The notes beneath the pieces were generated by a model. That model worked only from the letters and a program-made list of their open reading frames with translations. It had not been told where the DNA came from and ran no database searches. A DNA stretch of 64,000 nucleotides from Actinacidiphila cocklensis (lineage in GTDB: Bacteria > Actinomycetota > Actinomycetes > Streptomycetales > Streptomycetaceae): contig NZ_CAJSLV010000081.1 in the NCBI RefSeq assembly GCF_907177275.1, positions 186,001-250,000 on the forward strand, read 5' to 3'. A program made the translations under genes and the position numbers. Positions 26,667 through 61,098 of this stretch are shown here, piece by piece (the stretch's first letter is position 1; the number at the start of each line of letters is the position of its first letter).

Positions 26667-27602
26667 ATGCGCCATTCTCGTCAGGCTTCCTATCATGAGG
26701 GTGAGTTGGCCGCCCAAGAGCGCGCTGGATTCCGTGAGAGCGCTGAACATCTGCGCGCGATCATCGATGACCGTCTTCCACGCGGTGCGGCGGGCTTTCT
26801 GGCTGAGCTGCGATTCCTTGTTGTGGGTGCGGCCGCGCCCGATGGTCAGGTCTGGGCGTCGATTCTGTACGGACGTCCGGGATTCCTTCGGGTGCTCGGC
26901 CCTCGTGAGGTCCTTGTCGCAGCGCGCCTGCTGGACACGGATCCGTTGGCGGCGGCATTGGCCGACGCCGCGCAGGTGGGGACCCTGGCCATCGATCTTC
27001 CTCACCGGCGGCGTCTGCGAATCAACGGTCGCATGGAGGCCGCGCAGGATGGGTTCAGGCTTACCGTGGATCAGGCATACGGCAACTGCCCCAAGTACAT
27101 TCAGAGCCGGGAGCCGCAGAAGGCCGCACCCGCCCACGCGGTGCCCCATGTGACGCAGGGAAGCGAACTGCGTCCAGAGCAGCGGCATATGATCGACACG
27201 GCGGACACGTTCTTCGTTGCCTCTACCTCCACAACGGGTGATGCGGATGCCTCCCACCGCGGGGGGAACCAGGGGTTCGCCAACACTCCCACTCCGCAGC
27301 GGGTGCAATGGCCCGAGTATGAAGGCAACACGATGCTGATGACTCTGGGTAATCTCACGGTCAATCCGGCCGCGGGCCTGTTGTTCGTCGATTGGCGGTC
27401 CGGCACGACGCTGCAGTTGACAGGCACGGCCGAGATCGACTGGAGTATGGGCACCGCCGCCGATATCCCCGGGGCGGAGAGAGCAGTGGACTTCCACGTA
27501 AATCAGGTGGTCCAGACCGACCTGCCCGACGGCTCACTGATCTGGTCCGCGCCGCAGTTTTCGCGCTTCAACCCGCCGGCGCCGCGCGGGGCAGCAGGGT
27601 GA
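26667..27602 (+). CDS. Pyridoxamine 5'-phosphate oxidase-like FMN-binding protein
   Basis: A protein of about 311 residues starting MRHSRQASYHEGELA at 26667 after a GAGGA site. The split-barrel FMN-binding fold is seen twice. The first is RFLVVGAAAPDGQVWASILY followed by GRPGFLRVL; the second is TFFVASTST, GGNQGFANT and MLMTLGNLTVNPAAGLLFVD. The family includes flavin- or F420-dependent reductases and heme-related proteins. The last residues (PPAPRGAAG) run across a recombination junction into a broken tryptophan dioxygenase on the opposite strand, so the natural C-terminus was probably replaced by a few residues. Function is probably retained because the fold ends earlier (IWSAPQFSRFNP). Confidence 0.88.
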   Translation: MRHSRQASYHEGELAAQERAGFRESAEHLRAIIDDRLPRGAAGFLAELRFLVVGAAAPDGQVWASILYGRPGFLRVLGPREVLVAARLLDTDPLAAALADAAQVGTLAIDLPHRRRLRINGRMEAAQDGFRLTVDQAYGNCPKYIQSREPQKAAPAHAVPHVTQGSELRPEQRHMIDTADTFFVASTSTTGDADASHRGGNQGFANTPTPQRVQWPEYEGNTMLMTLGNLTVNPAAGLLFVDWRSGTTLQLTGTAEIDWSMGTAADIPGAERAVDFHVNQVVQTDLPDGSLIWSAPQFSRFNPPAPRGAAG

Positions 27603-27808
27603 CGGCCGCGTCCAGCTCGGCGCCGGCCGGCTTCAGCGACAGCCCGGTCGGCTGGTGCACCACGTGGAACAGCAGTTCGTCGTGGTGCACCCACTCCTCA
27701 GGAGCCCGCTACAGGGAGAGCAGCGTGCCGGTACGCATGTAGCGGGCGTAGTCGTCCTCGCCCTCGCCGCTCAGGATCGGTTTGGAGTAGTCACGAGCCG
27801 TTGTCCAT
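27577..27808 (-). pseudogene. Tryptophan 2,3-dioxygenase N-terminal remnant
   Basis: Downstream of the LanB-like gene and on the same strand, a frame reads DYSKPILSGEGEDDYARYMR, TGTLLSL, a TAG, then EEWVHHDELLFHVVHQPTG. The HDELLF-x-x-x-HQ block is the active-site helix of tryptophan 2,3-dioxygenase. Three lesions are visible: a frameshift just after the ATG at 27808, TAG where CAG is expected, and loss of everything after about 75 codons. The break coincides with the 3' end of the FMN-protein gene. The gene was probably the last member of the biosynthetic operon before a deletion or insertion junction removed it. Confidence 0.8.
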
Positions 27809-27822
27809 CTCCTTTCCCCTGG

Positions 27823-30123
27823 TTACCGGTGACCGTCGAAGGCCGCGAATCGAAGTTCGCTGGTGTAGGACGAGCCACCGACCCGTAGCCACAAGTCGTG
27901 CGGGGCAGGCAGCATTTCGGAGAACTGGACCTCGCCGGCCCGCCGCGCGAACCGGATCAGCTCGCGCACCAGCAGCGGGCTGTCGAGGTCGACGTAGACC
28001 GGCTTGCCCTCAGCGTCGGTGCGGGCGAAGACGTGCTGCGGCAGGCCGATCCGGTCGCGCAGCCGGCGCAGCGCCAGGAACGCGTCCCGCCCGTCCTTGG
28101 CAACCACCTGCGCGGCCGGAACCGACCAGGCCCGTCGGGACAGCACCAGGTCGCCGTACTCGACCCGGCGCAATGTACCGCCGGTGGGCACCTCGAACAG
28201 CGAGCCGGTGCGGCGCTTGGGGAAGCCGAAGACCTGCATCGGGTTGTATTGCAGCCGGAGCCAGTGCAGCGGCACGGTGATCAGCCGTACCGTCCGGCTG
28301 GTGGCCCGCTCCACCAGGCGCAGACCGTCCGGGTCCAGCCGCACCAGCAGGTCGGCGTAGTGCCGGCGCAGCTCGGCGGGCAGCGGCGAGCGGTCGGCGG
28401 CCTCGATCTCCGGGCACTGCGGGGGGTACCGGACGAAGGTCTTGTCCAAGTGGCGGACGGTGGCGTTCCAGATTGTCTCGCCTTCGCCGATGAGGTCCTG
28501 ATAGGACGCCAGCACCTGTTCGGCGATGTCAGGGTGCTTGGCAGCGACGTAGGGCGAGAACATGCCGTGGGTCAGCAGTTCCTCGTCGGCGTGCACCTCA
28601 CCGACCACCAGCCGGCCCGGTTCGGCCAGTCCGGCGGCAGTGGGGGCAGCAGCCAGCATGAGGTCGATGTTGCAGACGGCGGGTATCCGGGGGGCATGGG
28701 TGGCAAGGAACTTCTCCAGGCGGGCCTTCCGTTCGTCACCGTCACCGGGCCCCCCTTCAGCGGAACCGAACGCGCCGGCCGCCTCGGCCAGCCGGTCGTG
28801 CCAGGACGCCAGGGTGTCGGTGACCTGGGCGAAGGCCGGCGCCAGGCTGGCTTCGTCGTCGGCGTAGCCGCGCAGGTAGTCGTTGACGGAGGCGGTGCCG
28901 GACGGGAAGCGCTTGGCGAACCAGTCGGCCAGCACATCGTGTTCGAGCCGCTGGCTGAGCCGTGGCAGGAACAGGAAGGCGTCGGTGATCAGCGGCAGTG
29001 CCCGCTCCACCCGCTCGGTGACGGGCCGGCCGAGCACCACCGGATCCAAGCGGCCCACACTCTCCTGGTAGACCGGGGAGCGGTCCTGGTAGAAGCCGCC
29101 ATGGCCGCGCTCGGCCGAGACGCCGACAGTCCGCTCCAACAGCCGGCCGAGCCGTTCCAGCGCCGCTGCGCGCGCGGTGCGGTCGCCGTCGGCGTGCAGC
29201 CGAATCGCCTCGGCGCAGCAGGACACCAATTCCCGGAGTTCCGGGGAGTCCTGGGTTGCGGCCAGGTCGGTCAGCAGCGGCATCACGTCGGCCAGCCCGT
29301 AGGGCAGTTCCGGGCCCGGGATGACCAGGCCGCGGTCCGCCAGCCTCCGCAGGCCCGGCCCGGCGTCCCGACCGAGAGTCGCGCCGATCTGCGCGACGGT
29401 CCGGGTGCCGTCGCAGTACACCAGGATCTCCCGGTCCTCCGCCGTCAGCTGGACATCGGGATCGCGCGGGCCGACGATGCCGGCGACCCGGCCACGCTGG
29501 TCGAAGTCGAACCGCAGGTGGTCGACGACAGGCCCGTCGAACGCCACTCCGGGAGCCCGGCGCGGAACCATACCGGCGCCGCCGTCCGCCGCGTACCAGG
29601 CCGTGATCGCCTCGGCGGCCCAGCGGGACAGAAACGCCAGGTGCCGCAGAGGGACTTCGGCCCACTGCGATTCACCCTCCGGATCGAAGGTGCCGACGGT
29701 GAACGGACCGGCGTGGCCCGTCGAGTCGTTCTTGGCGCAGACCCGCTGCAGGTAGAGGGTGAGCGGGTCCACCCGGTTGCGGTCCTTGGACTTCCAGGCG
29801 GCCGGATCGGTCCGGTCCAGCCAGTGCTCGATGAGGGCGCAGGCACCGGGGTTGAGGGCGAACACCGCCTCGCGCAGCGACTCGTTCCGGGCGAAGCGCT
29901 CGAACACGGTCAGCCGTTCAGCGGCGAGCGCGGTGTCATAGCGGACCCGGTACTCCGCCGTCGCCCGGTCCACCACGGCAGCGGCGGCCGCCCGGTCGGC
30001 GGTCGACCCGCGCTCGGCCGCCAGCACCTCGTCCGCCGCGACGGCGGTCTCGGCGTCGGCCAGCTCGGTCAGCCACTCAAAGGGAAATCCGGCCATCCGC
30101 AGGACGAACGGCTGTGCACGCAT
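27823..30123 (-). CDS. LanB-type dehydratase / PEARL-like aminoacyl transferase
   Basis: A 766-residue protein of the class I lantibiotic dehydratase family. The N-terminus FVLRMAGFPFEWLTEL and the block LTLYLQRVCAKNDSTG then PFTVGTF match the LanB glutamylation domain. The C-terminal PVYVDLDSPLLVRELIRFA and EMLPAPHDLWLRVGGSSYTS are the family's last conserved strands. The separate elimination domain (SpaB_C) is absent. LanB proteins use Glu-tRNA to activate Ser/Thr; domain-lacking relatives called PEARLs attach amino acids from aminoacyl-tRNA to a carrier peptide C-terminus. Either chemistry is possible. It starts at an ATG with a GAGGAG site and lies 15 bp downstream of the LLM oxidoreductase. 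No substrate peptide gene is adjacent. Confidence 0.87.
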   Translation of the reverse strand: MRAQPFVLRMAGFPFEWLTELADAETAVAADEVLAAERGSTADRAAAAAVVDRATAEYRVRYDTALAAERLTVFERFARNESLREAVFALNPGACALIEHWLDRTDPAAWKSKDRNRVDPLTLYLQRVCAKNDSTGHAGPFTVGTFDPEGESQWAEVPLRHLAFLSRWAAEAITAWYAADGGAGMVPRRAPGVAFDGPVVDHLRFDFDQRGRVAGIVGPRDPDVQLTAEDREILVYCDGTRTVAQIGATLGRDAGPGLRRLADRGLVIPGPELPYGLADVMPLLTDLAATQDSPELRELVSCCAEAIRLHADGDRTARAAALERLGRLLERTVGVSAERGHGGFYQDRSPVYQESVGRLDPVVLGRPVTERVERALPLITDAFLFLPRLSQRLEHDVLADWFAKRFPSGTASVNDYLRGYADDEASLAPAFAQVTDTLASWHDRLAEAAGAFGSAEGGPGDGDERKARLEKFLATHAPRIPAVCNIDLMLAAAPTAAGLAEPGRLVVGEVHADEELLTHGMFSPYVAAKHPDIAEQVLASYQDLIGEGETIWNATVRHLDKTFVRYPPQCPEIEAADRSPLPAELRRHYADLLVRLDPDGLRLVERATSRTVRLITVPLHWLRLQYNPMQVFGFPKRRTGSLFEVPTGGTLRRVEYGDLVLSRRAWSVPAAQVVAKDGRDAFLALRRLRDRIGLPQHVFARTDAEGKPVYVDLDSPLLVRELIRFARRAGEVQFSEMLPAPHDLWLRVGGSSYTSELRFAAFDGHR

Positions 30124-30138
30124 ACCAGCGGTCTCCTC

Positions 30139-31041
30139 TCAACTCGCCTGGGTGTGAATCGTTTGGGCGCAGACGGCTCCGACCGCGCGCTGGAACCGGT
30201 CCATCGCGTCCGGCCGCTGCTCGTGCGGCCGCGGGTGGTCCACCACAACGTCGGTGAACCCCAACTCCGCGCAGGCTCCGGTGAGATCGGCCAGCCGGTC
30301 CGGACTCTCCCAGGGGTCGGCGGAGATCCGGCCCAGGTGCACCAGCCGGCGCAGGCTGCCCGGGTCCCGGCCGACCTGGGCGCAGGCCCGCTCCAGCCGG
30401 TCCAGTTGGGTTCGCAGCGTGCTGAGCGCCTGCTGCCCGGTCTCGGCGCCAGGCCGGCGCGGGTCGCCGATCGTCACCCAGGTGTCTGCGTGTGCCGCGG
30501 TCAGCCGCAGCCCGCGCGGGCCGGTGGCGGCGACGGCGAACGGCACCCGGGGCGTCTGCACGCAGCCCGGGACCATCGGCACGTCCACCGCCTGGAAGTA
30601 GCGGCCGTGCCGGGTGGTGACCGGCTGGCGCAGCAGTGTGTCCAGCATCGTCACGAACTCCTCGAACCGGTCCGCGCGTTCGGCCGCCGAGAGCTCCTTG
30701 GCGCCCAGCGCGTCCGCGTCCGGGCCGGCCACCCCCGCGCCGAGCCCGAGCACGAACCGGCCGCCGGACAGGTGGTCGACGCCCATCGCCTGGGTCGCGG
30801 TGGTCACCGGGTGCCGGAAGTTCGGGCTGGCCACCAGCGTGCCCAGGGTCATCCGCTCGGTCCCGGCCGCGGCTGCGGCCAGTAGCGTGAAGGAGTCGAA
30901 CCAGGGCCGCCCCCGCGCGCCCCGCCATGACAGGTGGTCCAGTGTCCAGGCATGGGCGACCCCGAGCTCTTCGACCCGGCGCCACATCCGGATGCCCTGC
31001 GGGCCGCTGAACTCGGGCAGCACCACCACGCCGACCCTCAC
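30139..31041 (-). CDS. LLM class flavin-dependent oxidoreductase
   Basis: A 300-residue luciferase-like monooxygenase with the TIM-barrel sequence VGVVVLPEFSGPQ, TLDHLSWRG, MTLGTLVASPNFRHPVTTA and GGRFVLGLGAGVAGPDAD. These proteins use FMNH2 or F420H2 to hydroxylate or reduce small molecules. The GTG start at 31041 overlaps the stop codon of the ATP-grasp gene by 4 bp (GTGA), so translational coupling is likely. Within this cluster it is the only obvious oxygenation enzyme left now that the dioxygenase is broken, and it may hydroxylate a nitrogen or carbon of the product, which is inference. The family's common HPVTTA loop supports F420 or FMN binding. Confidence 0.9.
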   Translation of the reverse strand: MRVGVVVLPEFSGPQGIRMWRRVEELGVAHAWTLDHLSWRGARGRPWFDSFTLLAAAAAGTERMTLGTLVASPNFRHPVTTATQAMGVDHLSGGRFVLGLGAGVAGPDADALGAKELSAAERADRFEEFVTMLDTLLRQPVTTRHGRYFQAVDVPMVPGCVQTPRVPFAVAATGPRGLRLTAAHADTWVTIGDPRRPGAETGQQALSTLRTQLDRLERACAQVGRDPGSLRRLVHLGRISADPWESPDRLADLTGACAELGFTDVVVDHPRPHEQRPDAMDRFQRAVGAVCAQTIHTQAS

Positions 31042-32411
31042 GGCTCGGCCACCAGGCTGCTCAGGCCGGCCCGGGACAGCGCGCTGACGATCCCCGGCTG
31101 GTGATCGGCCACATACCGCCCGAAGCAGCCCGCTCCTCCCCCGTCGATGACGAACGGGCTCATCACCGGGTTGGCCGAGACCCGGACGATCTCGCCGGAC
31201 TCCTCCAGCACGTCGACCGGCATCGGCACGGACGGCACGACCTCCTGCACGATGTGGCTGTCGCCGGCCACCGCCCGCTCCACCAGCGCGGCCCACTCGG
31301 CTGGCTCGGTGCGGCCGCCGAAGTGCACCTGCGCGCCGGACATACCGGTGAAGCCCTTGATGACGAACTGCTCCGGGCGCTCCACCAGCAGCTTCGGCAG
31401 ATCGTAAGAGGCGCCGCGCCACACCGTTTCGCGGTCGCCGAGGATCCGGGTCCACGGCAGGTAGCGGGCGGCCAACTCCCGTTCCCGGTCAGTCATCCAG
31501 GGCTGGCCCTCGGACAGCAGGCCCAACTGTCGCTTGGTGTGCAGGAGCCAGGAGCTCGCTGACGGGAGCAGCCGGAAGCCGCGGGCCTGGGCCGCCCGCA
31601 CCGGGCTGATGTCGTAGCCGAGTTGCTCGGCGTCGTGCACGTCGAACTGCGCCAGGCCCAGCGGGTGGCGCAGTGGGCCGCCGTCGGCCGGGCCGATGCC
31701 GTCGACCAGGTCCTCGAAGTCCAGGTGTACGGCGTTGATGCCGTGTTGGCGCAACAGGTCGGCCTGCTGCCGGAAGTGCCGCAGCGGGGTGTTCGGGCCC
31801 CACTCGCGCGGCGTGCCGACCAGCACCACCGACGGCGGCACGCCCAGCTCCCGGCAGGTGTCCTCGATCAGCCGGGCCAGCCGCGGGTAGGCGCCGACCG
31901 AGACGAAGGCCGGCAGTCCGGCCTCCTCCCGGATCCGCTGCCAGCCGCGCTGGTAGAGCTGGAAGTGCAGCAGGCCGCCGAAAGCCCCGCTTACGTTGAA
32001 CTCGACGAACTTCGGCCCGTCCGGGCCGAGCACCACGTCCGGCCGGGCCAGGTCGGCGCAGTGCCGCAGCTCCCAGGCCTCGTCGTCGGTCCAGTAGGGA
32101 CAGTCGGCCCGGTCCAGCCGCAGCGCGGCGATCCGGCCGGCGGTGTCGGGCCCGGCCAGCTCGGCGGAGCGGCGGATCAGCGCCAGCAGGGCGGCGGCGG
32201 CGTCGATCAGCTCGCGGTAGGCCGGCTGGGGCAGTACGAACGGCTGCAGCGCCATCGGGTACGGCGGGAACGGCAGTTCCCGGAATTCCTCGCGCATGAT
32301 CTCGGCGATCCGCGCGACCGGCAGCCCGATCTCGGGGGGCTCCGACCGGGCCGACAGCCAGGGCGCCGCGACAGGCGCGTTCACGCCGGTGCGGGGGGCG
32401 GCGGTACTCAT
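31038..32411 (-). CDS. ATP-grasp ligase, glutathionylspermidine-synthase-like
   Basis: A 457-residue protein starting at ATG 32411 after an AAGGAG site. Key segments are GPKFVEFNVSGAFGG (E137, N139, Mg/ATP-type acidic motif), the KLLVERPEQFVIKGFTGMSG lysine strand (about residue 360) and ASANPVMSPFVIDGGGAG-like phosphate or acceptor loop sequence (VSANPVMSPFVIDGGGAGCF). The order suggests a permuted ATP-grasp fold as in glutathionylspermidine synthases. Such enzymes activate a carboxylate as acyl phosphate and join it to an amine, so it is a candidate for forming an amide bond with beta-alanine. It overlaps its upstream and downstream neighbours by 4 bp, which implies coupled translation. Confidence 0.82.
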   Translation of the reverse strand: MSTAAPRTGVNAPVAAPWLSARSEPPEIGLPVARIAEIMREEFRELPFPPYPMALQPFVLPQPAYRELIDAAAALLALIRRSAELAGPDTAGRIAALRLDRADCPYWTDDEAWELRHCADLARPDVVLGPDGPKFVEFNVSGAFGGLLHFQLYQRGWQRIREEAGLPAFVSVGAYPRLARLIEDTCRELGVPPSVVLVGTPREWGPNTPLRHFRQQADLLRQHGINAVHLDFEDLVDGIGPADGGPLRHPLGLAQFDVHDAEQLGYDISPVRAAQARGFRLLPSASSWLLHTKRQLGLLSEGQPWMTDRERELAARYLPWTRILGDRETVWRGASYDLPKLLVERPEQFVIKGFTGMSGAQVHFGGRTEPAEWAALVERAVAGDSHIVQEVVPSVPMPVDVLEESGEIVRVSANPVMSPFVIDGGGAGCFGRYVADHQPGIVSALSRAGLSSLVAEP

Positions 32412-33568
32412 GGCTTGCTCCTTGCTGGCAGGAAGTCGTCGAGGTGGACGGTGCGGTAGCCGGGGCTGTTCGGGCAGGCGTGGGCCAGGTCGAGTCGGGC
32501 CGGCCGCTGGTCGTCGTGGAAGTAGACGGCGCCGAACTCCTGGTCGCCGACCAGCTCCAGCACCGGGTTGGCGACCAGGAAATCGCGCACGGCCGGGGTG
32601 TCGCGGCGGGCGTGGAACCAGACCCGCAGCCCGCCGAGGTGGTTGGGGGCCAGCTGCAAGCGCGGCGCGAACCGGCGTTTCCACTGGAACAGCCCGCGGC
32701 TCAGCCACGCCTCCATGCCGCCCAAGTCGACGTTCCTGTAACCGTGTTCGTCGGCCCATTCGAGAAGCAGGTGGTAAAGGGCCTTCATAGCGCCCAGCTG
32801 GTACATCTCCTCGGTGCCGTCGAGGACGCCGAGCAGCCGGACGGTGATGGTCGCTCCGTCCGCGGAGCGGCGGCACAGCACGCCGGCCACCCGTTCGCCG
32901 TCGACGGTGACAAAGGCCAGCACCCCGGATCGGAACAGGTTTTCCAGCGCGCTGGCCTCCGGCTCGCTGCGGGTCCGCGCGCCGTGCCGGGAACGCATGG
33001 TGGGCACGTGCATCCGACGGTAGAAGAACCGGAAGGACTCCTCGTCGGTGGCCACGTCGAACGCCCAGACACGCTCCTTGCGGCGCGCGGAGAACCACTG
33101 CCGCTCCCGCTTGGACACCGCGCGCTGCCACTGCTCCCGGCCGCCTGACAGGCCGACCACCAGGTGCAGGCGGAAAGGCAGCACCAACGCGTGCTCGGTC
33201 GGCAGCTCCGCCGCCTGCTCGGCGTGGCAGCCCACCGCGACCAGATCGGCGTCCGGCAGCACGCCGCCGAACAGGTCGGCACGCCGCACCCGGCCCCGCC
33301 GGACGGCGGTCGTCGGCGCGCCGCCGGCCTCCCGGCATGCTTCCAGGGTCTGCCGGACCCGTCCGATGCCGACCGGAACGCCGGCGTAACCCAGACTGGG
33401 CCCGTTCGGATCGGCCGAGGACACCGTCGAGACCAACGGCACCAGGTGCCGCTGCAACGCGCCGCGCACGCCGAGCAGCGCCGGATGGTCACTCTGCTCC
33501 CAGGCGTACCGTGCCCGCAGGGGCACGCCCCAGGCCGTCGACGCACCCGAACCGCCCGCACCAGTCAT
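32408..33568 (-). CDS. FemAB/GNAT-fold (Acetyltransf_6) transferase
   Basis: A protein of about 386 residues. The C-terminal half shows the GNAT-like FemAB module: LAFVTVDGERVAGVLCRR, the long helix MKALYHLLLEWADEHGYRNV and the closing DLGGMEAWLSRGLFQWKRRF. The N-terminal half is a related degenerate module with ERQWFSARRKERVWAFDV. FemAB relatives transfer amino acids from aminoacyl-tRNA, and some use acyl-CoA, to amines. I start at ATG 33568 with AAGGGG 8 nt upstream; a GTG at 33586 is the alternative. The stop overlaps the ATP-grasp start. A second possible aminoacyl-tRNA-using enzyme beside a LanB-like protein is notable. Confidence 0.8.
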   Translation of the reverse strand: MTGAGGSGASTAWGVPLRARYAWEQSDHPALLGVRGALQRHLVPLVSTVSSADPNGPSLGYAGVPVGIGRVRQTLEACREAGGAPTTAVRRGRVRRADLFGGVLPDADLVAVGCHAEQAAELPTEHALVLPFRLHLVVGLSGGREQWQRAVSKRERQWFSARRKERVWAFDVATDEESFRFFYRRMHVPTMRSRHGARTRSEPEASALENLFRSGVLAFVTVDGERVAGVLCRRSADGATITVRLLGVLDGTEEMYQLGAMKALYHLLLEWADEHGYRNVDLGGMEAWLSRGLFQWKRRFAPRLQLAPNHLGGLRVWFHARRDTPAVRDFLVANPVLELVGDQEFGAVYFHDDQRPARLDLAHACPNSPGYRTVHLDDFLPARSKP

Positions 33569-33617
33569 ATCGATCAGCCCCTTCACCCCGGTCCCCCGCT
33601 CCTGCCGTTCACTCCGG

Positions 33618-34883
33618 TCATCCCGGTGCCTCCAGCTGCCGGCGGGTGCGCAGCGCCCACCGGCTGGCCGGCACCGTCGGCAGCGCGCCGGCCAGGAACA
33701 CCCCGGCCAGCGTCAGCCAGCCCGCCACGCCCCAGCCGACCAGCAGCGTGGTCATCACCATCGGGGCGAAGCTGAGCGCGGTGGCCGAGCCGGCGGCGAA
33801 CGTGCTCTGGTACTCCCCGTGCGCCTCGTCGGGGGTCAGCCCGACCGACAGACCCCAGCCGCTGGCCGAGAACAGCAGCTCGCCGAAGGTGTGCACGGCT
33901 GCCGCCAGCAGCAGCACCGCGACCACCACCATGCCGCCGCGCTGGTAGCTCAGAGCGAACAGCAGGCAGGCGACGGCCAGTGCCACACCGCTGAAGGTGC
34001 CCAGTCGGGCAGCCCCGGCGACCTTGTCGGCCGCCCGGCTGACCCGGTTCTGGAACGCGACGATCGCCACCGTGTTGCCCGTGACCAGTACCCCGATGGT
34101 CCACAGCGGCGCCTCGGTATGGGTGGTGACCCACAGCGGCAGGCCGGTGTCCAGCACCCCCCAGTTCAGCGCCAGCACCCCGCTGAGCGAGGTGATCAGC
34201 AGGAACGGCCGATCGCGCAGCACCCGCATCCCGGGCCCGCCGGGGGTCCGGGGCACCGGGGGCACCCGTTCCACCCGCAGGGTCAGCATGGCGGCTGCCA
34301 GGTTCAACACGGCGTACAGCACCACCAACGCCAGGTAGGCCGCCCGCCGGTCCAGAACCAGCACCAGCGCGCCGAGCGCCGATCCCACCGTCAGCCCGAC
34401 ATGCTGGATCACCCGGTTGGTGGAGATCGCCTGCAGCCGGTCGCCGCCGGTGGTCAGTCCGGCCACCAGAGCGACCCGGATGCCCGGGGCGATGCGCTGC
34501 GCGGTCACCGCGACGAGCGACACCGCCATGAAGCCCCAGAACTCCGAGACCAGCAGGTAGCCGAGGGTCGCCAGGCCCTGCACCATGCCCAGGCAGACCA
34601 GCACCTCCCGGGTGCCCAGCCGGTCGGCCAGGTAGCCCAACGGGCTGCCGAGCACCAGCGAGACAACCCCGGCCGCGGTGACCCCAGCCCCGAACGAGGT
34701 CGCGGACAGCCCGACCGAGCGGGTGAAGAAGACCGCCCAGCAGGTGAACCAGGCCCCGGTGCCGAGGGTCAGCACCAGGGTGGCGAGCTGCACCTCGGCC
34801 AGCGGGCCGGACACCAGCCCGGCCAACCGGCCGGGCTGGCCGGGGGATGACGCGCGGGCCGACCGCCGCAGGATCCGGCTCAC
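33618..34883 (-). CDS. MFS transporter of the biosynthetic cluster
   Basis: A 421-residue membrane protein with about 11-12 hydrophobic helices. The A-type loop is GSPLGYLADRLGTREVLVCL after the second helix. It starts at a GTG (34883) overlapping the stop of the PLP-like gene by 4 bp. Given its place in the middle of the operon, it most likely exports the cluster product and may provide self-resistance. There is no signal peptide, and the cytosolic C-terminal tail is short and basic (RWALRTRRQLEAPG). The FemAB-like gene follows after about 50 bp. Confidence 0.9.
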   Translation of the reverse strand: MSRILRRSARASSPGQPGRLAGLVSGPLAEVQLATLVLTLGTGAWFTCWAVFFTRSVGLSATSFGAGVTAAGVVSLVLGSPLGYLADRLGTREVLVCLGMVQGLATLGYLLVSEFWGFMAVSLVAVTAQRIAPGIRVALVAGLTTGGDRLQAISTNRVIQHVGLTVGSALGALVLVLDRRAAYLALVVLYAVLNLAAAMLTLRVERVPPVPRTPGGPGMRVLRDRPFLLITSLSGVLALNWGVLDTGLPLWVTTHTEAPLWTIGVLVTGNTVAIVAFQNRVSRAADKVAGAARLGTFSGVALAVACLLFALSYQRGGMVVVAVLLLAAAVHTFGELLFSASGWGLSVGLTPDEAHGEYQSTFAAGSATALSFAPMVMTTLLVGWGVAGWLTLAGVFLAGALPTVPASRWALRTRRQLEAPG

Positions 34884-36283
34884 GGCGTGCCGATGGCGGC
34901 TTCGGCCCCGGCGGCGACCGCCCGGCGGGTCACCTCCAGCAGGCCCGCGACGTCGGTGACCGCGGTGCGCCGGTCGGGCGGCAGCGCCACGAAGTCCCTG
35001 GTGCTGTAGGTGCCCGAGCCGTGCACCAGGATGTCGGTCTCCTCCACCAGGCCCCGGTCGATCGCGTTCAGGATGCCGGTGAGCGCCATCACCAGCGACC
35101 ATTCCCGCAGGTCACGGGGGTCGACCGGGATCTTGACGCCGACCCGCCCGAGCATCCCGCGCAGCACCGGGTAACGCTGCAGCACCTCGTGGAGCGAGAC
35201 CACGATCCCGCCGCCGCCCTGCCGCTGGATGATCGCGTTCATCTCGGTCGAGGTCACCGGGCGGCGGGTGTAGAAGGTCGGGTCGAGGATCTCGGCCGGG
35301 TCGAAGGTGGCGGCCGGAAACCGCGGGTCCTGGTCCTGCCGGTACAGCATGCTGGCCTCGTCCAGCGTGTACGTCGGCCGGCCGGCCGGGTCGGCGGAGC
35401 CGTGGTACAGGTTGAGCACCATGTCGGCGGTGTCCAGGTGCTGCACCAGCAGGTAGTGCGCGGTCGGCTTGCCGCCGGCCGCCGCGGCCCGGCGGCGGGC
35501 CCCCAAGTCGTGGCCGAGCAGTCCGTAGGCGCTGGAGACGGAGTGCACGTGCAGCCGGCCCACGGCGGCGGGCAGGAACTCCTCCTCGGCCGCGGCCCGG
35601 ATCACGTCGGCCACCAGGTAGTTGCCGATCTCCAGCGTGTACCAGAGGTGCACGCCGAACTCCGCCAGGATCTCGTCGGCGTGCTGCTCCACCAGGGCTT
35701 GGGCCAGCGCCTTGACGTCGGCCCGGTCCTCCCCGTCGAACGTGACCACCGGGTTGCGGGTGCGCAGCACCGGGTCTGTGGCCAGCGGCGAGTCCCAGAG
35801 CTTGTGCGCCGACGAGCCCGGCACCACCACCACGATGCCCAGCTGCTCGGGCGTGGCCAACCCGGTCTCGTAGGCGCGCAACACGGCGTCGCGCAACGCG
35901 GTGACCTTGTTGCCGGAGGAGGGCGAGACCAGCAGGACCGGCTCGCCGGTGCGCTGGATGAACTCCACGGCACGCGCCACGATCATCAGCGAGGGGCCGG
36001 TCTTGGTGGTCCGTGCCCGCGGGTTGCGTGACAGGTCCAGCAGCCGCAGCCGCCGCCCCTGGTACTGACCGAGGTCGGCAACCGCCAGCTCGCAGGCGGA
36101 CAGGTAGCTCCGCAGCCGGTCGTCGACCGGTGGCAGGGCGAACCCCGGGTTGAAGGCGGTGGCCTGCGGGTCGCGGTCCGCGCCGAGGGCTTCGAGCGCG
36201 CCGGTGACGTCGTCGGCGTAGCGCAGCAGGGCGTTCTCGATGACGACGGTCTCCGCCGGGGCGACGGTCGCGGCGCCGGTCAT
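34880..36283 (-). CDS. Protein with fold-type II PLP enzyme-like motifs
   Basis: A 467-residue protein that I cannot place in a characterised enzyme family. RNPRARTTKTGPSLMI places Lys94 where threonine or cysteine synthases have the PLP lysine (NPTGSFKDR type). LLVSPSSGNKVTALRDAVLR (SSGNK, 122-126) resembles their SSGNT phosphate/substrate loop, followed by a strand LGIVVVVPGSS. The C-terminal GSGTYSTRDF could be the PLP ring-binding Ser loop. I therefore infer a distant tryptophan-synthase-beta-fold enzyme, possibly working on an aspartate- or serine-derived amino acid. It has a strong GAGAGGAA site, follows panD by 47 bp and overlaps the exporter gene. Confidence 0.65.
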   Translation of the reverse strand: MTGAATVAPAETVVIENALLRYADDVTGALEALGADRDPQATAFNPGFALPPVDDRLRSYLSACELAVADLGQYQGRRLRLLDLSRNPRARTTKTGPSLMIVARAVEFIQRTGEPVLLVSPSSGNKVTALRDAVLRAYETGLATPEQLGIVVVVPGSSAHKLWDSPLATDPVLRTRNPVVTFDGEDRADVKALAQALVEQHADEILAEFGVHLWYTLEIGNYLVADVIRAAAEEEFLPAAVGRLHVHSVSSAYGLLGHDLGARRRAAAAGGKPTAHYLLVQHLDTADMVLNLYHGSADPAGRPTYTLDEASMLYRQDQDPRFPAATFDPAEILDPTFYTRRPVTSTEMNAIIQRQGGGGIVVSLHEVLQRYPVLRGMLGRVGVKIPVDPRDLREWSLVMALTGILNAIDRGLVEETDILVHGSGTYSTRDFVALPPDRRTAVTDVAGLLEVTRRAVAAGAEAAIGTP

Positions 36284-36330
36284 GGCAGTTCCTCTCGGTT
36301 CGGGGGTCTGGTCGCGGGTGGTCGGGGCGG

Positions 36331-36786
36331 TCAGCCGGCGACCACGCGGTCACCGCGCAGCAGGCCGGCTTCGGGCGCCTGAGCGGCGGGTCCGGTGCCC
36401 TTCGCGGTCACGGGCACGGCGGCCGGGTCATCGCCCTCGTGCAGCGCCCGGTTCTCCCCGTCCACGAAGACCACCTTCGGCGCCAGTTCGCGCGCTTGGT
36501 CGTCGCGGACCGAGGCGTAGCTGATGATGATCACCAGATCACCGGGCGAGATCAGCCGGGCGGCGGCGCCGTTGATCCCGATCACGCCGCTGCCGGCCGG
36601 CCCGGGGATGACGTAGGTGGTGAGCCGGTTGCCGTTGTCGATGTCCACCACGTCGACCTGCTCGCCGGGCAGCAGGTCGGCGCGCTCCATCAGGTCCGTG
36701 TCGATGGTCAGGGAGCCCACGTAGTGCAGGTCGGCCTGAGTCACGGTGGCACGGTGGATCTTGGATTTCAGCATGGTGCGGTACAC
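36331..36786 (-). CDS. panD: Aspartate 1-decarboxylase
   Basis: A 151-residue pyruvoyl enzyme proenzyme that turns L-aspartate into beta-alanine and CO2. The self-cleavage site HYVGSLTID is Gly24-Ser25; the new Ser25 becomes the pyruvoyl group. Other key residues are in place: Lys9 (KSKIHRA), Arg54 (NGNR) and Tyr58 (TTYVI). The C-terminal extension (about residues 120-151) is slightly longer than usual. The pantothenate copy of panD is normally with panB/panC, absent here, so this is likely a pathway-dedicated gene. It sits 41 bp downstream of the asparagine-synthetase gene in the same operon and strongly suggests beta-alanine is a building block. Confidence 0.93.
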
Positions 36787-36827
36787 GGGACCCCCAGTCG
36801 GACGGGTGCTTGTGGTGGTCGAGGTGG

Positions 36828-38657
36828 TCAGGCCAGCCGGACGTTGTAGGTCCGCATCCAGATGTCGGCCTCGAGCAGCGGCAGCAGCAGGTGTGCCGCG
36901 TTGAGCCAGGTCATGGTCTTCTCGGCGCGGGTCCGCAGCTCCTCGACGCGCTGCCGGTCCAGCGCGCCGAACAGCGGTGAGGACCGGTCGGCGAGCAGCT
37001 TGTCGATGCCGCGGATGACGTCGACCTCGTAGGACGGGTCATGGGTGCCGGGGTAGGCGCTTTTGGGCCGGGTCAGGGTCTGCTCCGGGACGAGGCCCCG
37101 CGCGGCCAGCCGCAGCGGCGACTTCTCCCGGCCGTCGGCGATCTTCATCTGCCACGGGATGTTCCAGGCGTACTCGACCAGCCGATGGTCGCAGTAGGGC
37201 ACCCGGACCTCCAGGCCGTTCGCCATGCTCATCCGGTCCTTGCGGTCCAGCAGGTAGAGCAGCGGCCGTTGCATGCTCAGGAAGAGCACCTCGCGCATCC
37301 GTGCGCTGTGCGGATCCTCTCCGGGCAGTCGCGGCACCCGGGCCAACAGGGTGCGGTAGCGGTCCTGTTCGGCCTCGTCCGGCCGGATCCTGGCAGCCAC
37401 GTCGGGTGCCAGGCAGTCGGTGAGCCGGGGTGCGTCGCCCAGCCATGGGAAGCCGTCCCAGGAAGTGGTGCGCGGGTCGTGGTACCAGGGGTATCCGCCG
37501 AACAGCTCGTCGGCGGCCTCGGCGGACAGCCCCACCGTGGAGCGCTTGCGCATCTCGGCGAAGAGCAGGTACATCGAGGTGTCGAACTGCCCCAGGCTCG
37601 GCAGGTCGCGCGAGGCGCGGGCACCAGGCAGCACCTCGACCAGGTCCCGGGTTTGCAGCGTCACCGGCACGTGGTCGGTGCCGAACTGCTCTGCGGCCAG
37701 GCGGGCGTAGGGGGCGTCGATCTCCGGGCGCAGCACGGTCGGGCTGAAGTGCTCCTCGTCGCCCTCGAACTGGACGCAGTAGGTAGTCAGCGGGTCGTGG
37801 CCGGTGCGAGAGTACTCGCGGGCGGCCAGGGCGCTCACATAGGTGGAGTCCAGGCCGCCGGAGAGCATCGACGACACCGGGACGTCGGCTACCAGCTGAC
37901 GCCGCACGATGTCCTCCAGCAGGTCGCGGACATGGCCGACGGTGGCGTCCAGGTCGTGCGGGTGCGGGGCGCTCTCCAGCGCCCAGTAGCGGTGTTCCCG
38001 GGCGCCGCTGCGGTCGATCCGGACGATGTGCCCGGGTTGCACCTCCTTCAGGCCGCGCAGCGGCGTCTCATGGGGCAGCCCGAGGCGGGCGTTGAGCAGG
38101 ATCGGGAGGTCCTGCTCGTCCAACAGCGGGGTGAAGCGCGGGTTCGCCATGATGCCCTTGGGCTCGGAGGCGAACAGCACTCCGTTCGTCATCTCGTAGT
38201 AGTAGAGCGGCTTGACGCCCATCCGATCCCGGATCAGCACCAGCGCCTCGTGCTCGGCGTCCCAGACCGCGAAGGCGAACATCCCGTTCAGGTGCTCGGC
38301 GCAGGCCGCCCCCCACTGCCGGTAGGCGTGCAGCACCACCTCGGTGTCCGAGCGGGTCTGGAAAACGTGGCCCAGGTCGGCCAACTCCGAACGCAATTCG
38401 GGAAAGTTGTAGACCTCGCCGCTGTAGACCAGCACGGTCGGGCCGCTGGGCCGATCCCGGTCGGCCAACATCGGCTGCCGGCCGCCCTCGATGTCGATGA
38501 CGGCGAGCCGGCGGTGGCCGAGGGCGGCGTGAGCGGATACCCAAAGTCCGCTGTCGTCAGGACCGCGCAGCCGCATTGTCTCGACCATTCGGTCCAGAAT
38601 CGGCCGATGCGTTCTGAGGTCCTCGCCGAAGTCGACCCAGCCGACGATTCCGCACAT
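36828..38657 (-). CDS. asnB: Asparagine synthetase-type glutamine amidotransferase
   Basis: A 609-residue two-domain enzyme. The N-terminal glutaminase has Cys2 (MCGIVGWVD), [10 protein letters not shown] and YSGEVYNF (where FNGEIYNY is usual). The C-terminal synthetase domain has the ATP pyrophosphatase loop SGGLDS at 266-271 and [15 protein letters not shown]. It forms an AMP-activated carboxylate and transfers ammonia from glutamine. In antibiotic clusters such proteins amidate or condense intermediates rather than make asparagine. It is the first gene of the minus-strand operon and is divergent from the SARP gene. All catalytic residues I can check are present. Confidence 0.93.
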
Positions 38658-38805
38658 TGGTCCGCCCCTGACTGAGGATCACCTATGTTCCTCAATTCGC
38701 CTGGCCGTTAGTATCAGCGCGATCGGCGACAGTTCGACGACACTGCGTCGACAGCAACGATGGAAGAAGTTCCCGGACCACAAGTCCGAAAGGGAGGCCT
38801 TTCCC
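38658..38805. promoter_or_regulatory. Divergent promoter region of the cluster
   Basis: This is the 148-bp gap between asnB and the SARP gene, the only place for the operon's main promoter. It is somewhat AT-richer than its neighbours (GGATCACCTATGTTCCTCAA). GGGAGG, about 10 nt before the SARP ATG, is its ribosome site. SARP heptad repeats were looked for but are not convincing. Confidence 0.55.
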
Positions 38806-41433
38806 ATGCTCTTATGCCTTTTGGGGCCATTAGCGATCGTCGATGACTCTCATGCCGAGATCGTCCTGCCGCACGGCCGGCTCAGGACCTTACTGGCCGC
38901 GTTACTGACCCGGGCGAACCAGACCGTCCCGGTGGACGAGCTGGTGGATATCGTCTGGGACAGCCAGCCGACCGCGGACGCCGAACGCACGGTGCGCAGC
39001 TACATGGCCCGGCTGCGCCGGGCGCTGGGCCCGGCTGTCAGCGCCCGGATCCATACCGGTTCCCCCGGCTACCAGTGCGAACTGGACGTCCACGAGCTTG
39101 ACCTGTCGCGCTTCGAGCAGCTCTGCGGGCAGGCCCGGGCGGCTGCGGCCGAGCAGGCCTGGCCGCTGGCCACCCGACTGTTCGCCGAGGCCCTGGGGCT
39201 GTGGCGCGGCACTCCGCTGAGTGACATCACCTCAGATCTTCTCCAGGCGAGGGAAGTCCCGCGCCTTGAGCAACTGCGATTACAGGCCGTCGAGGACCAC
39301 ATCGAGGCGCAGGTGCACCTCGGCCGGCACCAGCACCTGATCCCCGAACTGCAGGACTTGACCACGCGTTTCCCGCTGCGCGAGCGTCTGCACGTTCAGT
39401 TGATGCGCTCGCTGGCCGGTGCCGGCCGCCGGGCCGAGGCGCTTGACGCCTACCACAGCGCCCGCCGGACGCTGGTCGACCAACTCGGCATCGAGCCGGG
39501 CCCGGAGCTGCGCCGGCTGCAAGAACGGATCTTGGACGGCGACACTTCGCTGCTGGCCCCGCGTCGGCCCGGCGCGATCCGGGAGTTGGACGCGGTGGTA
39601 GCCCCCCGTCAATTACCGTCTTCAATTCGGCACTTCGTTGGCCGTGAATATGAACTATTGCTGCTGAACCAATTGTTGACCGAGCAGACTGATGTCGGCG
39701 GCGGGGCCGTGATCGCAGCGATCGACGGCACGGTCGGCACCGGCAAGACCGCGCTGGCCGTGCACTGGGGCCACCGGCACGGCGACCGTTTCCCCGACGG
39801 GCAGTTGTACGTCGACCTGCGCGGTGCCGACCCGTTCGACGTGCCGGTCACGCCGGCGGCCGCGGTGCACGGGTTCCTGGTCGCGCTGGGCGTGCCGGCC
39901 CGGCAGATCCCGCTGGACGTCGGCGAGCAGCTCGCGCTGTACCGCTCGCACCTAGCCGCCCGCCGGATGCTGGTGCTGCTGGACGACGCCCGGGACGCCG
40001 ACCAGGTCCGGCCGCTGCTGCCCGGCTCGCCCGGCAGCGTCGTGCTGATGACCAGTCGTACCCGGCTGACCGACCTGGTGGCCCTGGACGGCGCGGTGCC
40101 GATCACCCTCGACCCACTGGCTGATTCCGAGGCGCACGACTTGCTGGGCCATCGGCTGGGCACCGAGCGGGTGGAACGCCAGGGACCGGCCGTCGCCGGG
40201 CTGACCGAGCTGTGCGCCGGCCTGCCGCTGGCGCTCAACATCGCCGCGGCGAAGGCCATCGCGGAACCGGACCGGCCGCTGGCCGAGCTCGTCGGGGAGC
40301 TGCGGGCCGCGCGCCGGCGGGTGGGCCGTCTCCGCCCGGACGGCGACGGAGACGGCAGGGACACCGGGGATCCGGATCCGCTCCCGGACCACGGCGCGAC
40401 CGACGAGCGCAACGCGGCCCTATGGGCCGTCCGGACCTTCGCCCCCGAGGTGAACCGGGCGTTCCGAATGCTGGCCGTCCAACCGGGGCGGGAAGGCAGC
40501 GTGCCGGCGCCGGCCGTGCCCGACACTCCCGCGCCGGGCGTCGCCGGCCTCGGCACCGTGCCGGCCCCCGTCCCGGGCGTCGCCGCGTGCCTGCCATGCC
40601 ACTGCGCGGCCGAGCACCCGGGCCTGCCGCACTGCTCCCTGACCCGCCTGGCGGCACCGGCTCCGCACACCCAGCCGCACCTGCCCCCCGCCGTCCTGAA
40701 CACCGCCTGGTCGGAGGCCGAGTACGCCAACCTGGTGGCCGCCTGGCTGGCCGCCCTGGCCGCCGCCGATCGACTGTCCGACCCGGTGACTTGGATCCGG
40801 GCCCGCCGAATGATCGGCCACGCCTACGGCGAGTTGGGCCAGTACGATCAGGCGCTGAACTACCTGAGCCAGGCACTCGCGCGGATCGCCGAGCATCCCG
40901 ATCCGCTGGAGCAGGCGCACACCCACCGGCAGCTGGCCCGGACCTGGGACGGCCGCCGGGATGACCGCCAGGCACTGCACCACGCGGCCTGTGCGCTGCG
41001 CCTGTACCGCAGACTCAACCAGCCGATCTGGGAGGCGTACGCGCTCAACCAGGTCGGCTGGTACGCGGCCCACCTCGGCCATCCCGACGCGGCGCGCGGG
41101 CACTGTTCGGAGGCGCTGACCCTGCACCGCCGGCACGGCAACTTGGACGGGGAGGCGAACACCCTCGACAGCCTCGGCTTCATCGAACACCTCACCGGTG
41201 GCCACGAGCGAGCAGTTGAGCACTACCGGTCTGCCCTGAACCTCTACCAGGTGCTCGGCAACGTGCCGCAAGCCGCTACCATCCTGGGCAATCTCGGCCA
41301 TGTGTACGCCGACTCCGGGGACCCCTCGCAGGCCCGGCAGGCCTGGACCGAGGCGGCGGCTCACTACCGGGAGGTGGGGCGCACCCGGGACGCCGAGCAG
41401 GTCGAACTCCGGTTGGCCGCAGAGCCCGGGTGA
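38806..41433 (+). CDS. SARP-type activator with NB-ARC and TPR domains
   Basis: An 875-residue large SARP. Residues 1-95 form the OmpR-like winged helix (LRTLLAALLTRANQTVPVDE, ERTVRSYMARLRRAL). Residues about 97-240 form the bacterial transcriptional activation domain (YQCELDVHELDLSRFEQLC, LHVQLMRSLAGAGRRAEALD). Residues about 285-520 form the NB-ARC ATPase with Walker A GTVGTGKT and Walker B RMLVLLDDA. TPR repeats fill about 640-870. It is divergent from the operon and presumably activates it. Six TTA leucine codons (38812, 38830, 38890, 38902, 39280, 39613) make its translation depend on the bldA tRNA, tying the pathway to development. Confidence 0.93.
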   Translation: MLLCLLGPLAIVDDSHAEIVLPHGRLRTLLAALLTRANQTVPVDELVDIVWDSQPTADAERTVRSYMARLRRALGPAVSARIHTGSPGYQCELDVHELDLSRFEQLCGQARAAAAEQAWPLATRLFAEALGLWRGTPLSDITSDLLQAREVPRLEQLRLQAVEDHIEAQVHLGRHQHLIPELQDLTTRFPLRERLHVQLMRSLAGAGRRAEALDAYHSARRTLVDQLGIEPGPELRRLQERILDGDTSLLAPRRPGAIRELDAVVAPRQLPSSIRHFVGREYELLLLNQLLTEQTDVGGGAVIAAIDGTVGTGKTALAVHWGHRHGDRFPDGQLYVDLRGADPFDVPVTPAAAVHGFLVALGVPARQIPLDVGEQLALYRSHLAARRMLVLLDDARDADQVRPLLPGSPGSVVLMTSRTRLTDLVALDGAVPITLDPLADSEAHDLLGHRLGTERVERQGPAVAGLTELCAGLPLALNIAAAKAIAEPDRPLAELVGELRAARRRVGRLRPDGDGDGRDTGDPDPLPDHGATDERNAALWAVRTFAPEVNRAFRMLAVQPGREGSVPAPAVPDTPAPGVAGLGTVPAPVPGVAACLPCHCAAEHPGLPHCSLTRLAAPAPHTQPHLPPAVLNTAWSEAEYANLVAAWLAALAAADRLSDPVTWIRARRMIGHAYGELGQYDQALNYLSQALARIAEHPDPLEQAHTHRQLARTWDGRRDDRQALHHAACALRLYRRLNQPIWEAYALNQVGWYAAHLGHPDAARGHCSEALTLHRRHGNLDGEANTLDSLGFIEHLTGGHERAVEHYRSALNLYQVLGNVPQAATILGNLGHVYADSGDPSQARQAWTEAAAHYREVGRTRDAEQVELRLAAEPG

Positions 41434-48988: not shown

Positions 48989-49875
48989 GGGCCACCGCCC
49001 TCGCCGTACGGCCCGGGGCACGGCGTACAGCGTCGCCCGCCGAGCGCGTGTCCGACGCCATCGAGGCGGCCCTGGGCGGCGACGCGTACGTCGTTCGCGT
49101 CCTCGCAAACCGTGCCATCTGCGTTCCTCCATGGGTGCCCGGCCATTGTAGGAGCGCAGTGCCCGTTCCGTGCCGCCGTCAATGCGCGGGAGTCGATCCA
49201 GGTGCGACCGGGGACGTCGTGGAGACCGCCGGTGATCGGTGGCCGCAGGGCCGGACCACCCGGGCGTCCGAGGGACCCGGGACGTGTGAGGCGTCCGGAA
49301 ACCTGCCGACCCGCGGCCCGTGGTCATCAGGGCGCCGACGAGGACGGGGAACGCGGCGGACTCCTCCGCGTCGTCCTGCGTCGCGTCCTGGCCGTCCGGC
49401 GACTGTTCGTGGATCGCTCCGATCCGGCACCGTGGGACGGGGATCCCCGATCGCGGATCCCTGACCGTCGTCCTGTGGCCACCCCACCTGGTGAACTGCG
49501 GCTGGGAAAGTACCGGGTTCCTGCTCTCCAGTGAACGCCGCTCGACCGGTACTGATGATGGCTCCGAATGGCTCGGAGCACGTCGAGTAGGGCAAGGGCT
49601 CTGGTGTGTCTGCTGTCTGACCTGCAATAAAAGGCGGTCGCCGCCAATCTGTGGGCTGCCGCCCGATCGGCAGAGACGTCCGAGGAACGGACGATCCGCG
49701 GACGAGATCGTACTCATCCACAGGTGACTCACACGTGTGTCATCGATCACAGAGGTGCCACGGGGTCTCCGTGTGCCGCGGGCAGGGACTCCCCGGCAAC
49801 ACTCGCGACCCTTGACATCGCGTCGCCACAGACATGTTTCCTCCATCGTCTCCGGAGCGACCAGGCTGACGCACC
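48989..49875. other. Gene-free stretch upstream of the LAL gene
   Basis: Several open frames cover this region on both strands, but none shows family motifs or normal amino-acid composition. The LAL promoter should lie near its right part. Nothing else is recognised. Confidence 0.4.
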
Positions 49876-49879
49876 GGCC

Positions 49880-50105
49880 CGGGTTTCGGCCCGCAGATTC
49901 CCGGACGGCGGGTCGCCGAGCGCGACAAGCAGGCCGCCACCGTCCGGAAGGCGGCGACCTGGACCGAGATGGAAGAGCCCGGGCGGCCGTGGGCGAGGGT
50001 TGCATCTGTTTCGAGGACGAGGCAGGCTTGACCCGCCGACCGCCCCGAGGACGTACCCGGGGCCGGCGCGGAGTGACCACTCATCCCTCAGGCAAGGCAA
50101 GCGCC
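49880..50105 (+). pseudogene. IS630 transposase fragment
   Basis: ERDKQAATVRKAATWTEMEE followed, one frame over, by CICFEDEAGLTRRPPRGRT and RGRRG. This is the region around the first catalytic Asp of IS630 transposases (FEDEAG, GRRG.TP). Both ends are missing and frames change, so it is a relic. Confidence 0.65.
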
Positions 50106-60964: not shown

Positions 60965-61098
60965 TCGCGCACCCCCGGACACTGCACTCGTACGTCCCGG
61001 CGGACACCGGCACACTGCACAACGATCTTCACGGCGCCCGGGGTGTAGTGCATCTGTCGAATGACCAGTCGTCCGCGACGACTCGCTGACCTGGCAGA

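Follow-up and report, generated by a model that had tools for sequence, protein, structure and literature searches.

What does an operon assemble in which two opposite kinds of tRNA-type ligase share space with a pyridoxal phosphate (PLP)-fold protein family that a literature search did not find named? The question is raised by a locus at positions 27823-41433 of a stretch of 64,000 nucleotides (the window; 69.7% GC) from the 9.1 Mb genome of the soil actinomycete Actinacidiphila cocklensis, contig NZ_CAJSLV010000081.1. A preliminary description of this DNA had listed panD, AsnB, a PLP-like enzyme, an exporter, FemAB, an ATP-grasp ligase, a luciferase-like (LLM-class) oxidoreductase, LanB and a SARP-type regulator, and all of these are present. 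The locus is real, conserved and uncharacterised, and is a variation on known tRNA-dependent peptide chemistry. Our reading, which we hold to be probable, is that it serves the carrier-free, aminoacyl-tRNA-dependent assembly of a small peptide around a residue made by the PLP-fold protein, DUF6002. Non-ribosomal peptide bonds formed from aminoacyl-tRNA have so far come from single enzymes in scattered pathways.

Organization and conservation of the locus

Eight tightly packed genes run on the minus strand from 38657 to 27823, in the order AsnB, PanD, DUF6002, major facilitator superfamily (MFS) exporter, FemAB-like transferase, ATP-grasp ligase, LLM and LanB-like protein (Table 1). The SARP gene starts divergently on the plus strand, 148 bp from AsnB. 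As had been described, a protein resembling LanB and the peptide aminoacyl-tRNA ligases (PEARLs) occurs here together with a FemAB-like protein, and no nonribosomal peptide synthetase (NRPS), polyketide synthase (PKS) or carrier gene was found in the unit.

The gene set is not a product of chance, because seven of the eight genes are collinear with a cluster of Kibdelosporangium banguiense (locus L112), in which panD, DUF6002, MFS, FemAB, ATP-grasp, LLM and LanB follow one another in the window order at 79, 64, 60, 61, 67, 62 and 54% identity, respectively. Independent occurrence of the genes without conserved linkage, a possibility raised in the preliminary description, was checked and not borne out. 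In all seven shared genes, codon position 3 differs most, at 40.8-50.8%, and position 2 at 14.5-29.9%, a pattern indicative of purifying selection as judged from position counts rather than from a formal dN/dS.

Proposed assembly

DUF6002, which has the predicted fold and a putative Schiff-base lysine of a PLP enzyme, would use PLP to make a non-proteinogenic amine or amino acid. Beta-alanine is likely to be a building unit as well, and PanD, by its enzyme family, would provide it as an extra building block. The FemAB-like enzyme, if it acts as its family does, would move an amino acid from tRNA onto the amine of the unit and so extend it on the N-terminal side, and the ATP-grasp ligase, whose fold is of the glutathione-synthetase type, may make one more amide bond. 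On the C-terminal side, family and residues suggest that the PEARL-like LanB would phosphorylate the free carboxylate with ATP and add a second tRNA-borne amino acid. AsnB would convert a carboxylate to an amide, LLM would perform a redox step, MFS would export the product, and SARP would control expression.

We propose only tentatively, and with more doubt than confidence, that the product represents a new natural-product class, in which a DUF6002-made residue is extended both ways, by FemAB at the amine and by PEARL at the carboxylate, without recourse to a ribosome, an NRPS or a carrier peptide, and that DUF6002 is an undescribed PLP enzyme family. Enteromycin-, tabtoxin- and dapdiamide-like products were also weighed, and no evidence favours any one of them.

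Table 1. Genes and gene remnant of the locus, with window coordinates and the matches on which their assignment is based
Feature	Coordinates	Strand	Evidence
AsnB-type glutamine-dependent amidotransferase, 609 amino acids (aa), first gene of the unit	36828-38657	-	PF00733/PF13537; Asn_synthase 2.5e-87; N-terminal MCG
PanD, aspartate 1-decarboxylase	36331-36786	-	TIGR00223 1.9e-47, above cut-off
DUF6002 protein, PLP fold-type II, K94 putative Schiff-base lysine	34880-36283	-	PF19465 4.6e-190
MFS exporter	33618-34883	-	PF07690 1.1e-20 (scanned with a longer start)
FemAB-like (GNAT-fold) aminoacyl transferase	32408-33586	-	PF13480 (Acetyltransf_6) 1.2e-7
ATP-grasp ligase, glutathione-synthetase type	31038-32411	-	AlphaFold model and Foldseek
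LLM-class oxidoreductase, luciferase-like, probably F420-dependent	30139-31041	-	PF00296 (Bac_luciferase) 7.2e-42
LanB N-domain protein without elimination domain, PEARL-like, 766 aa	27823-30123	-	Homologue and family profile
Broken tryptophan-2,3-dioxygenase-like remnant	27571-27822	-	Homology to open gene of L112; internal stop
SARP-type regulator with NB-ARC and TPR parts	38806-41433	+	PF03704 (BTAD) 1.2e-44; NB-ARC/TPR matches

DUF6002, the core enzyme

The PLP-like enzyme of the preliminary description is DUF6002. Its PLP fold was borne out, and the description needs correction in that DUF6002 is the recurring core of related loci. An AlphaFold model built from a 73-row alignment (the window, 69 of 79 called genes and three further rows) reached a pLDDT of 95.5. 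Foldseek placed 9k3c, CapA2 of Alistipes, first and threonine synthases next. VIA-align gave Z 29.4 for threonine synthase 1v7c (root-mean-square deviation 2.8, 310 aligned) and Z 27.6 for 9k3c (2.9, 345 aligned), and the model firmly predicts a threonine-synthase/cysteate-synthase fold. The fold does not give the reaction, because further fold-type II PLP enzymes match at Z 23.8-26.1. DUF6002 shares this fold with CapA2 and the threonine synthases, and has a lysine and a Ser-Ser-x-Asn loop that may be read as fold-type II PLP features, but it is only 13-20% identical to the nine best VIA-align rows and has no convincing sequence-level match to any solved chain. Searched by sequence against solved chains, it gave a single match at chance level (E 0.96).

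K94 is present in 69/73 rows, and S123 and N125 are kept in 73/73 (one row is a duplicate). We take the Thr-Thr-Lys-Thr motif and the Ser-Ser-x-Asn loop to fit the lysine and asparagine loops of fold-type II enzymes, which is a motif reading made without superposition. Gln replaces K94 in four rows (L130, L134, L137 and L056) forming one clade, possibly a non-PLP or accessory form; each of these loci has an ATP-grasp gene and none has a FemAB gene in the stretch examined. In one genome (G597), DUF6002 is fused to a TauD-type dioxygenase in a single frame of 768 aa (L054, 13992-16298). No relative was matched in PLSDB plasmids, and the name DUF6002 was not found in a search of 5.39 million papers.

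Distribution and variation of DUF6002 loci

DUF6002 is present in 4 of 396 genomes of a phylum-wide sample and in 2 of 35 genomes of the genus, the genome under study being counted in both. A scan of named genomes found 92 loci with a relative, in actinomycetes as well as Pseudomonas, of which 80 were kept; one solved product would make many of these orphan clusters readable. Gene content was compared in a matrix of 82 loci (79 loci, G587, G597 and the window). Left out were L109, in which no DUF6002 ORF (open reading frame) was called, and G031, which lies on the same contig as L124, the shorter flank of the latter missing the LanB gene. Since flanks did not exceed 10 kb and were truncated at contig ends, gene absences may be cut-off effects, and since the loci are related, Fisher p-values overstate independence. 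The labels NRPS, PKS, OpDH and MFS denote single-linkage groups with one or few members scanned each; OpDH is by eye a Rossmann-like protein, the scanned member of which has no Pfam or NCBIfam match. The DUF6002 tree holds 72 rows (L034 dropped as a duplicate of L124), and the other alignments comprise 32 rows for LanB, 28 for FemAB and 15 for ATP-grasp, with approximate gene starts.

The partners across the 82 loci are OpDH (45), NRPS (42), LanB (34), PKS (33) and FemAB (31), and more rarely panD (17), ATP-grasp (15), MFS (15), LLM (14), a split thiamine pyrophosphate (TPP) decarboxylase (13) and AsnB (12). The NRPS-free character that had been ascribed to the gene set therefore holds for the window unit but not for about half of the DUF6002 loci. 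LLM and OpDH never share a locus (0/82, Fisher p 2.8e-6) although the tree of DUF6002 implies five or more changes of these labels, which suggests that they replace each other; the two are tied to different partner sets, and this may explain part of their exclusion. PanD and the TPP pair are likewise found together in 0/82 loci, with at least four changes, and are not among the pairs with p < 0.02.

DUF6002, FemAB and MFS lie side by side in five Pseudomonas loci (L126, L128, L131, L132 and L133), where the other window genes were not found in the stretch examined. This trio fits a scheme of making a residue, aminoacylating it and exporting it. Should DUF6002 be an undescribed PLP enzyme family, the trio would be a minimal form of it that extends to Pseudomonas; with three genes, its core chemistry is easy to test. 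In L131-L133 the gene immediately upstream of the trio encodes a GTPase and by eye looks like prfC, and dpp-like peptide-transport genes, whose families were scanned in L128, occur close to all five loci. A small acidic, secreted-looking protein of 83-86 aa is encoded near the trio in all five.

Elsewhere, type III PKS (DpgA-like), crotonase-like and amidinotransferase genes were recognized by eye in L034, L052, L064, L116, L121 and L124, and a PGM1-like ATP-grasp also occurs in L116, L121 and L124/L033 (family scanned in L033 only); we take these to be resorcinomycin/pheganomycin-like parts. The variable genes resemble caps added to a common core. In NRPS-type DUF6002 loci, no specificity could be read from the adenylation codes extracted with motif-based regular expressions, and the EHHxxHDG ureido motif was found in none of the genes scanned.

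The fold of DUF6002 and the split decarboxylases together evoke a sulfonate pathway, an alternative to be taken seriously even though we regard it as unlikely. DUF6002 would here be a cysteate synthase, converting phosphoserine and sulfite to cysteate; PanD, or the TPP pair after transamination, would give taurine or sulfoacetaldehyde, and aminoacylation by FemAB would lead to a taurine- or cysteate-capped peptide. CapA2, the best Foldseek match, is presumably a cysteate synthase, in line with capnine and sulfonolipid work, but threonine synthases score as high or higher, as the Z values above indicate. In G587 the TPP subunits resemble the alpha (1.3e-30) and beta (2.6e-32) subunits of sulfopyruvate decarboxylase without reaching the curated cut-offs, but for the beta subunit phosphonopyruvate decarboxylase is the better match (6e-35). 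RhiEF of rhizocticin has the same split architecture and acts on phosphonopyruvate (PMC12141560). A phosphonate reading of the TPP pair was rejected, to the benefit of the sulfonate one, as the PEP (phosphoenolpyruvate)-mutase family matches of G587 and G597 lie more than 100 kb from the clusters; this family also matches in 11 of 14 control genomes, and the contig placement in G808-G810 is unsettled. The mutual absence of panD and the TPP pair also agrees with a sulfonate pathway, but is weakened by its place outside the pairs of low p-value.

PanD itself favours aspartate. A second panD elsewhere in the genome makes that of the window an extra copy; the two proteins are 71% identical over 122 aa, and in the alignment the active-site regions at the N-terminal lysine and the HYVGS stretch look intact. 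The window PanD scores 160.3 bits with TIGR00223 (cut-off 106) and, being closely like the other copy, most likely supplies beta-alanine.

The LanB-like protein

The preliminary description had a LanB without its elimination domain, and indeed no match to this domain (PF14028) was found in the protein, whose C-terminus comes soon after a GluLeuArg motif. The protein alone has no Pfam match at E<=10, and its identity as a LanB comes through relatives: a homologue in G031 (Streptomyces griseoaurantiacus), 37-39% identical, matches Lant_dehydr_N (PF04738) at 6.5e-22, and the family profile of 32 rows, seven of them from loci without DUF6002, finds PDB entry 6ec7, a "Lantibiotic dehydratase domain protein," at 4.5e-18.

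A PEARL uses ATP to activate a carboxylate, which is then coupled to the amine of aminoacyl-tRNA (PMC12945691, PMC11962472). The ATP-binding and catalytic residues given for BhaB7 in the same sources (R34, D558, E575, H577, R715, F755, K763, E813 and R815) have putative counterparts in R9, D487, E509, H511, R663, F699, K707, E756 and R758, paired by their order and comparable spacing, the BhaB7 sequence itself not being aligned. Each is kept in 28-32 of the 32 rows, and R9, D487, H511, R663, E756 and R758 in all of them. A single-sequence scan of the contigs of the named genomes with the LanB-like protein found no relative. The nearest homologues outside DUF6002 loci occur as pairs in each of four genomes, G206, G265, G275 and G328 (L035-L042), with no DUF6002 within the 34-38 kb examined.

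The FemAB-like transferase and the ATP-grasp ligase

The 28-row FemAB profile matches 9wqy (2e-4) and 9wqw (8e-4), both annotated as "aminoacyl-tRNA-dependent peptide synthase," and FemX at 0.07. In enzymes of the FemAB type the acceptor attacks the aminoacyl-tRNA (PMC12945691). K303 is invariant (28/28 rows) and was paired with the catalytic lysines K305 of FemX and K329 of DhpH-C by position only, outside the aligned stretch.

With Pfam, the ATP-grasp protein of the window gave only a match below the cut-off (E 0.006). PPR-type matches of its profile were judged to be compositional chance, and a structure search was used instead: the AlphaFold model (pLDDT 85.2) has homoglutathione synthetase 3kal as its best Foldseek match (1.6e-14), and glutathione synthetases were also found.

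AsnB and LLM

AsnB of the window is 57-64% identical to the AsnBs of 11 other DUF6002 loci (one partial) and 46-48% identical to the four K. banguiense AsnB relatives compared; by these identities the cluster AsnBs are closer to each other than to those relatives. For LLM, the nearest NCBIfam model is TIGR03560 of the F420 family, below the cut-off.

The nearest solved structure to AsnB is the hydroxyamidotransferase 7ylz (1.5e-152, versus 1.6e-41 for E. coli AsnB), which we take to be TsnB9. The enzyme might on this ground form a hydroxamate like TsnB9 of the trichostatin pathway, the hydroxylamine unit coming from LLM or another oxygenase, but this seems improbable to us. The ranking may reflect coverage, because only one close AsnB relative has been solved, and AsnB occurs without LLM in 3 of 12 loci. 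Moreover, none of the eight genes falls into the AurF-like family, although no search was aimed at TsnB6 or TsnB7. Precedents for hydroxyamidotransferases come from the trichostatin and benzohydroxamate work (PMC13418202, PMC5719088), in which TsnB7 is said to be an AurF-like oxygenase (PMC5719088).

Evidence weighing against the proposed assembly

Several observations speak against the tRNA-dependent assembly proposed above. FemAB and LanB are found in the same locus in 3 of the 82 cases (a fourth if G031 replaces L124), and the set with two tRNA-type enzymes is a rare form. AsnB is absent beside the K. banguiense cluster. The FemAB-like protein alone matches no solved chain at E<=1. LanB homologues also abound outside such loci, 100 of 391 genomes of the order having a match (E<=1e-5). 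Finally, R663, F699 and K707 also align in 6ec7, which we take to be TbtB, while D487, E756 and R758 lie outside the alignment of the window LanB with that structure. TbtB uses no ATP (PMC11962472), and since at least three of the PEARL residues also align in this ATP-independent protein, the residue counterparts are support rather than proof.

To these must be added a weak PqqD-like match, of the RRE (recognition element of ribosomally synthesized and post-translationally modified peptides, RiPPs) type, which the LanB family profile keeps (E 0.0027) and which could bind a carrier peptide. LanB would then be a classic PEARL that acts on a ribosomal carrier peptide encoded elsewhere, with proteolytic release of the product, and carrier-type PEARLs do act in this way (PMC12945691). 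We give this little credence. The RRE-like match is no proof of a carrier, because BhaB7 and TglB tolerate removal of the peptide segment expected to bind the RRE (PMC11962472), and in an NRPS-PKS cluster a LanB-N protein is active in the absence of a carrier (PMC11212132). A search of 20000-46000 for ORFs of 25-120 aa ending in a PLALA-like sequence, the one motif tried, gave none, and the remaining genome was not searched. No small separate ORF, except the dioxygenase remnant, is common to the window and the K. banguiense locus, and family scans found no protease among the eight genes.

The remnant is the last point on this side. It adjoins the 3' side of LanB as two adjoining pieces parted by a stop, the remainder being gone, and these are 63% (over 35 aa) and 59% (over 41 aa) identical to the N-terminus of an open gene in K. 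banguiense, a tryptophan-dioxygenase-like copy of 234 aa directly after LanB. Behind that copy lie an aminotransferase-V gene that matches kynureninase weakly, another dioxygenase-like gene and an FAD (flavin adenine dinucleotide) hydroxylase, and then genes for a class IV aminotransferase, a cyclase-type hydrolase and a methyltransferase. Since the gene is open in K. banguiense and has further genes behind it, the window cluster has probably lost its tail, and the remnant suggests that the copy of this strain has lost steps. The kynurenine-type tail lies at 18402-21344 of L112 and 1904-8950 of L146; among the loci compared, homologues of the remnant were confined to the window and the K. banguiense cluster.

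A cluster in decay, which would yield no finished product in this strain, could be read from the same remnant and from the open gene with its kynurenine-type companions in K. banguiense, but we think this improbable as well. None of the eight reading frames is interrupted, and DUF6002, FemAB, LanB and AsnB retain the residues that were checked in them. The codon pattern of the seven shared genes also argues for function, although it averages over the whole split and is compatible with recent decay. A lanthipeptide or pearlin-type RiPP cluster was rejected, as the elimination domain, LanC and precursor peptide of class I lanthipeptide clusters were not found at the locus, with no PF14028 or LanC family match in the eight genes and six scanned flanking window genes, and neither a precursor nor a protease family found in the unit.

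Comparison with known systems

Dapdiamide-type pathways likewise combine a PLP fold-II enzyme, an amidotransferase, an ATP-grasp ligase and MFS in one small cluster; they differ in using ATP-grasp instead of tRNA-dependent transferases and are not known to include PanD. The threopeptin pathway (sna, Stackebrandtia nassauensis; PMC11212132) is likewise actinobacterial and has a LanB-N-type amide ligase, SnaE, a PEARL that acts on a small molecule with no carrier peptide involved. However, its backbone is made by NRPS and PKS, and its gene list, in the accessible text, contains no FemAB, ATP-grasp, PanD or PLP enzyme. Of the unusual peptide-like product suggested in the preliminary description, the lack of a carrier gene in the unit agrees with what was found here, but carrier-free PEARL action alone is not new, as it has been published for threopeptin.

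Carrier-type PEARLs (TglB, AmmB, BhaB; PMC12945691, PMC11962472) are also LanB-N proteins without an elimination domain, and their ATP-site residues have putative counterparts here in the same order; unlike the proposed system, they add to a ribosomal peptide and this is cleaved afterwards, and no such peptide was found at the window locus. The GNAT-fold transferase systems reviewed in PMC12945691 resemble the locus in being small biosynthetic clusters with an invariant lysine in the C-terminal part, but are not described there, as far as the accessible text goes, with a PEARL or a DUF6002-like enzyme. A literature search (PEARL/LanB, FemAB, AsnB/PanD and sulfopyruvate decarboxylase; most subscription papers outside its scope) found no description of the gene set, in agreement with the earlier statement that the combination was not recognized from any known pathway. 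Among the matches listed, only the review PMC12945691 has both Fem and PEARL terms, and its accessible text treats the two as separate systems.

Flanking regions

A weak match to the LanB stretch of L112 (6e-4), at 39447-39644 within the SARP gene, was judged to be chance. A Mu/IS-type transposase (rve and Mu-transpos_C_2) is encoded at 12920-14380 on the plus strand. Beyond the SARP side lie three large AAA_16/LuxR (LAL-type) regulators, at 46199-50080 (-), 58112-61168 (-) and 61099-63912 (+), the last two of which are divergent and adjoining.

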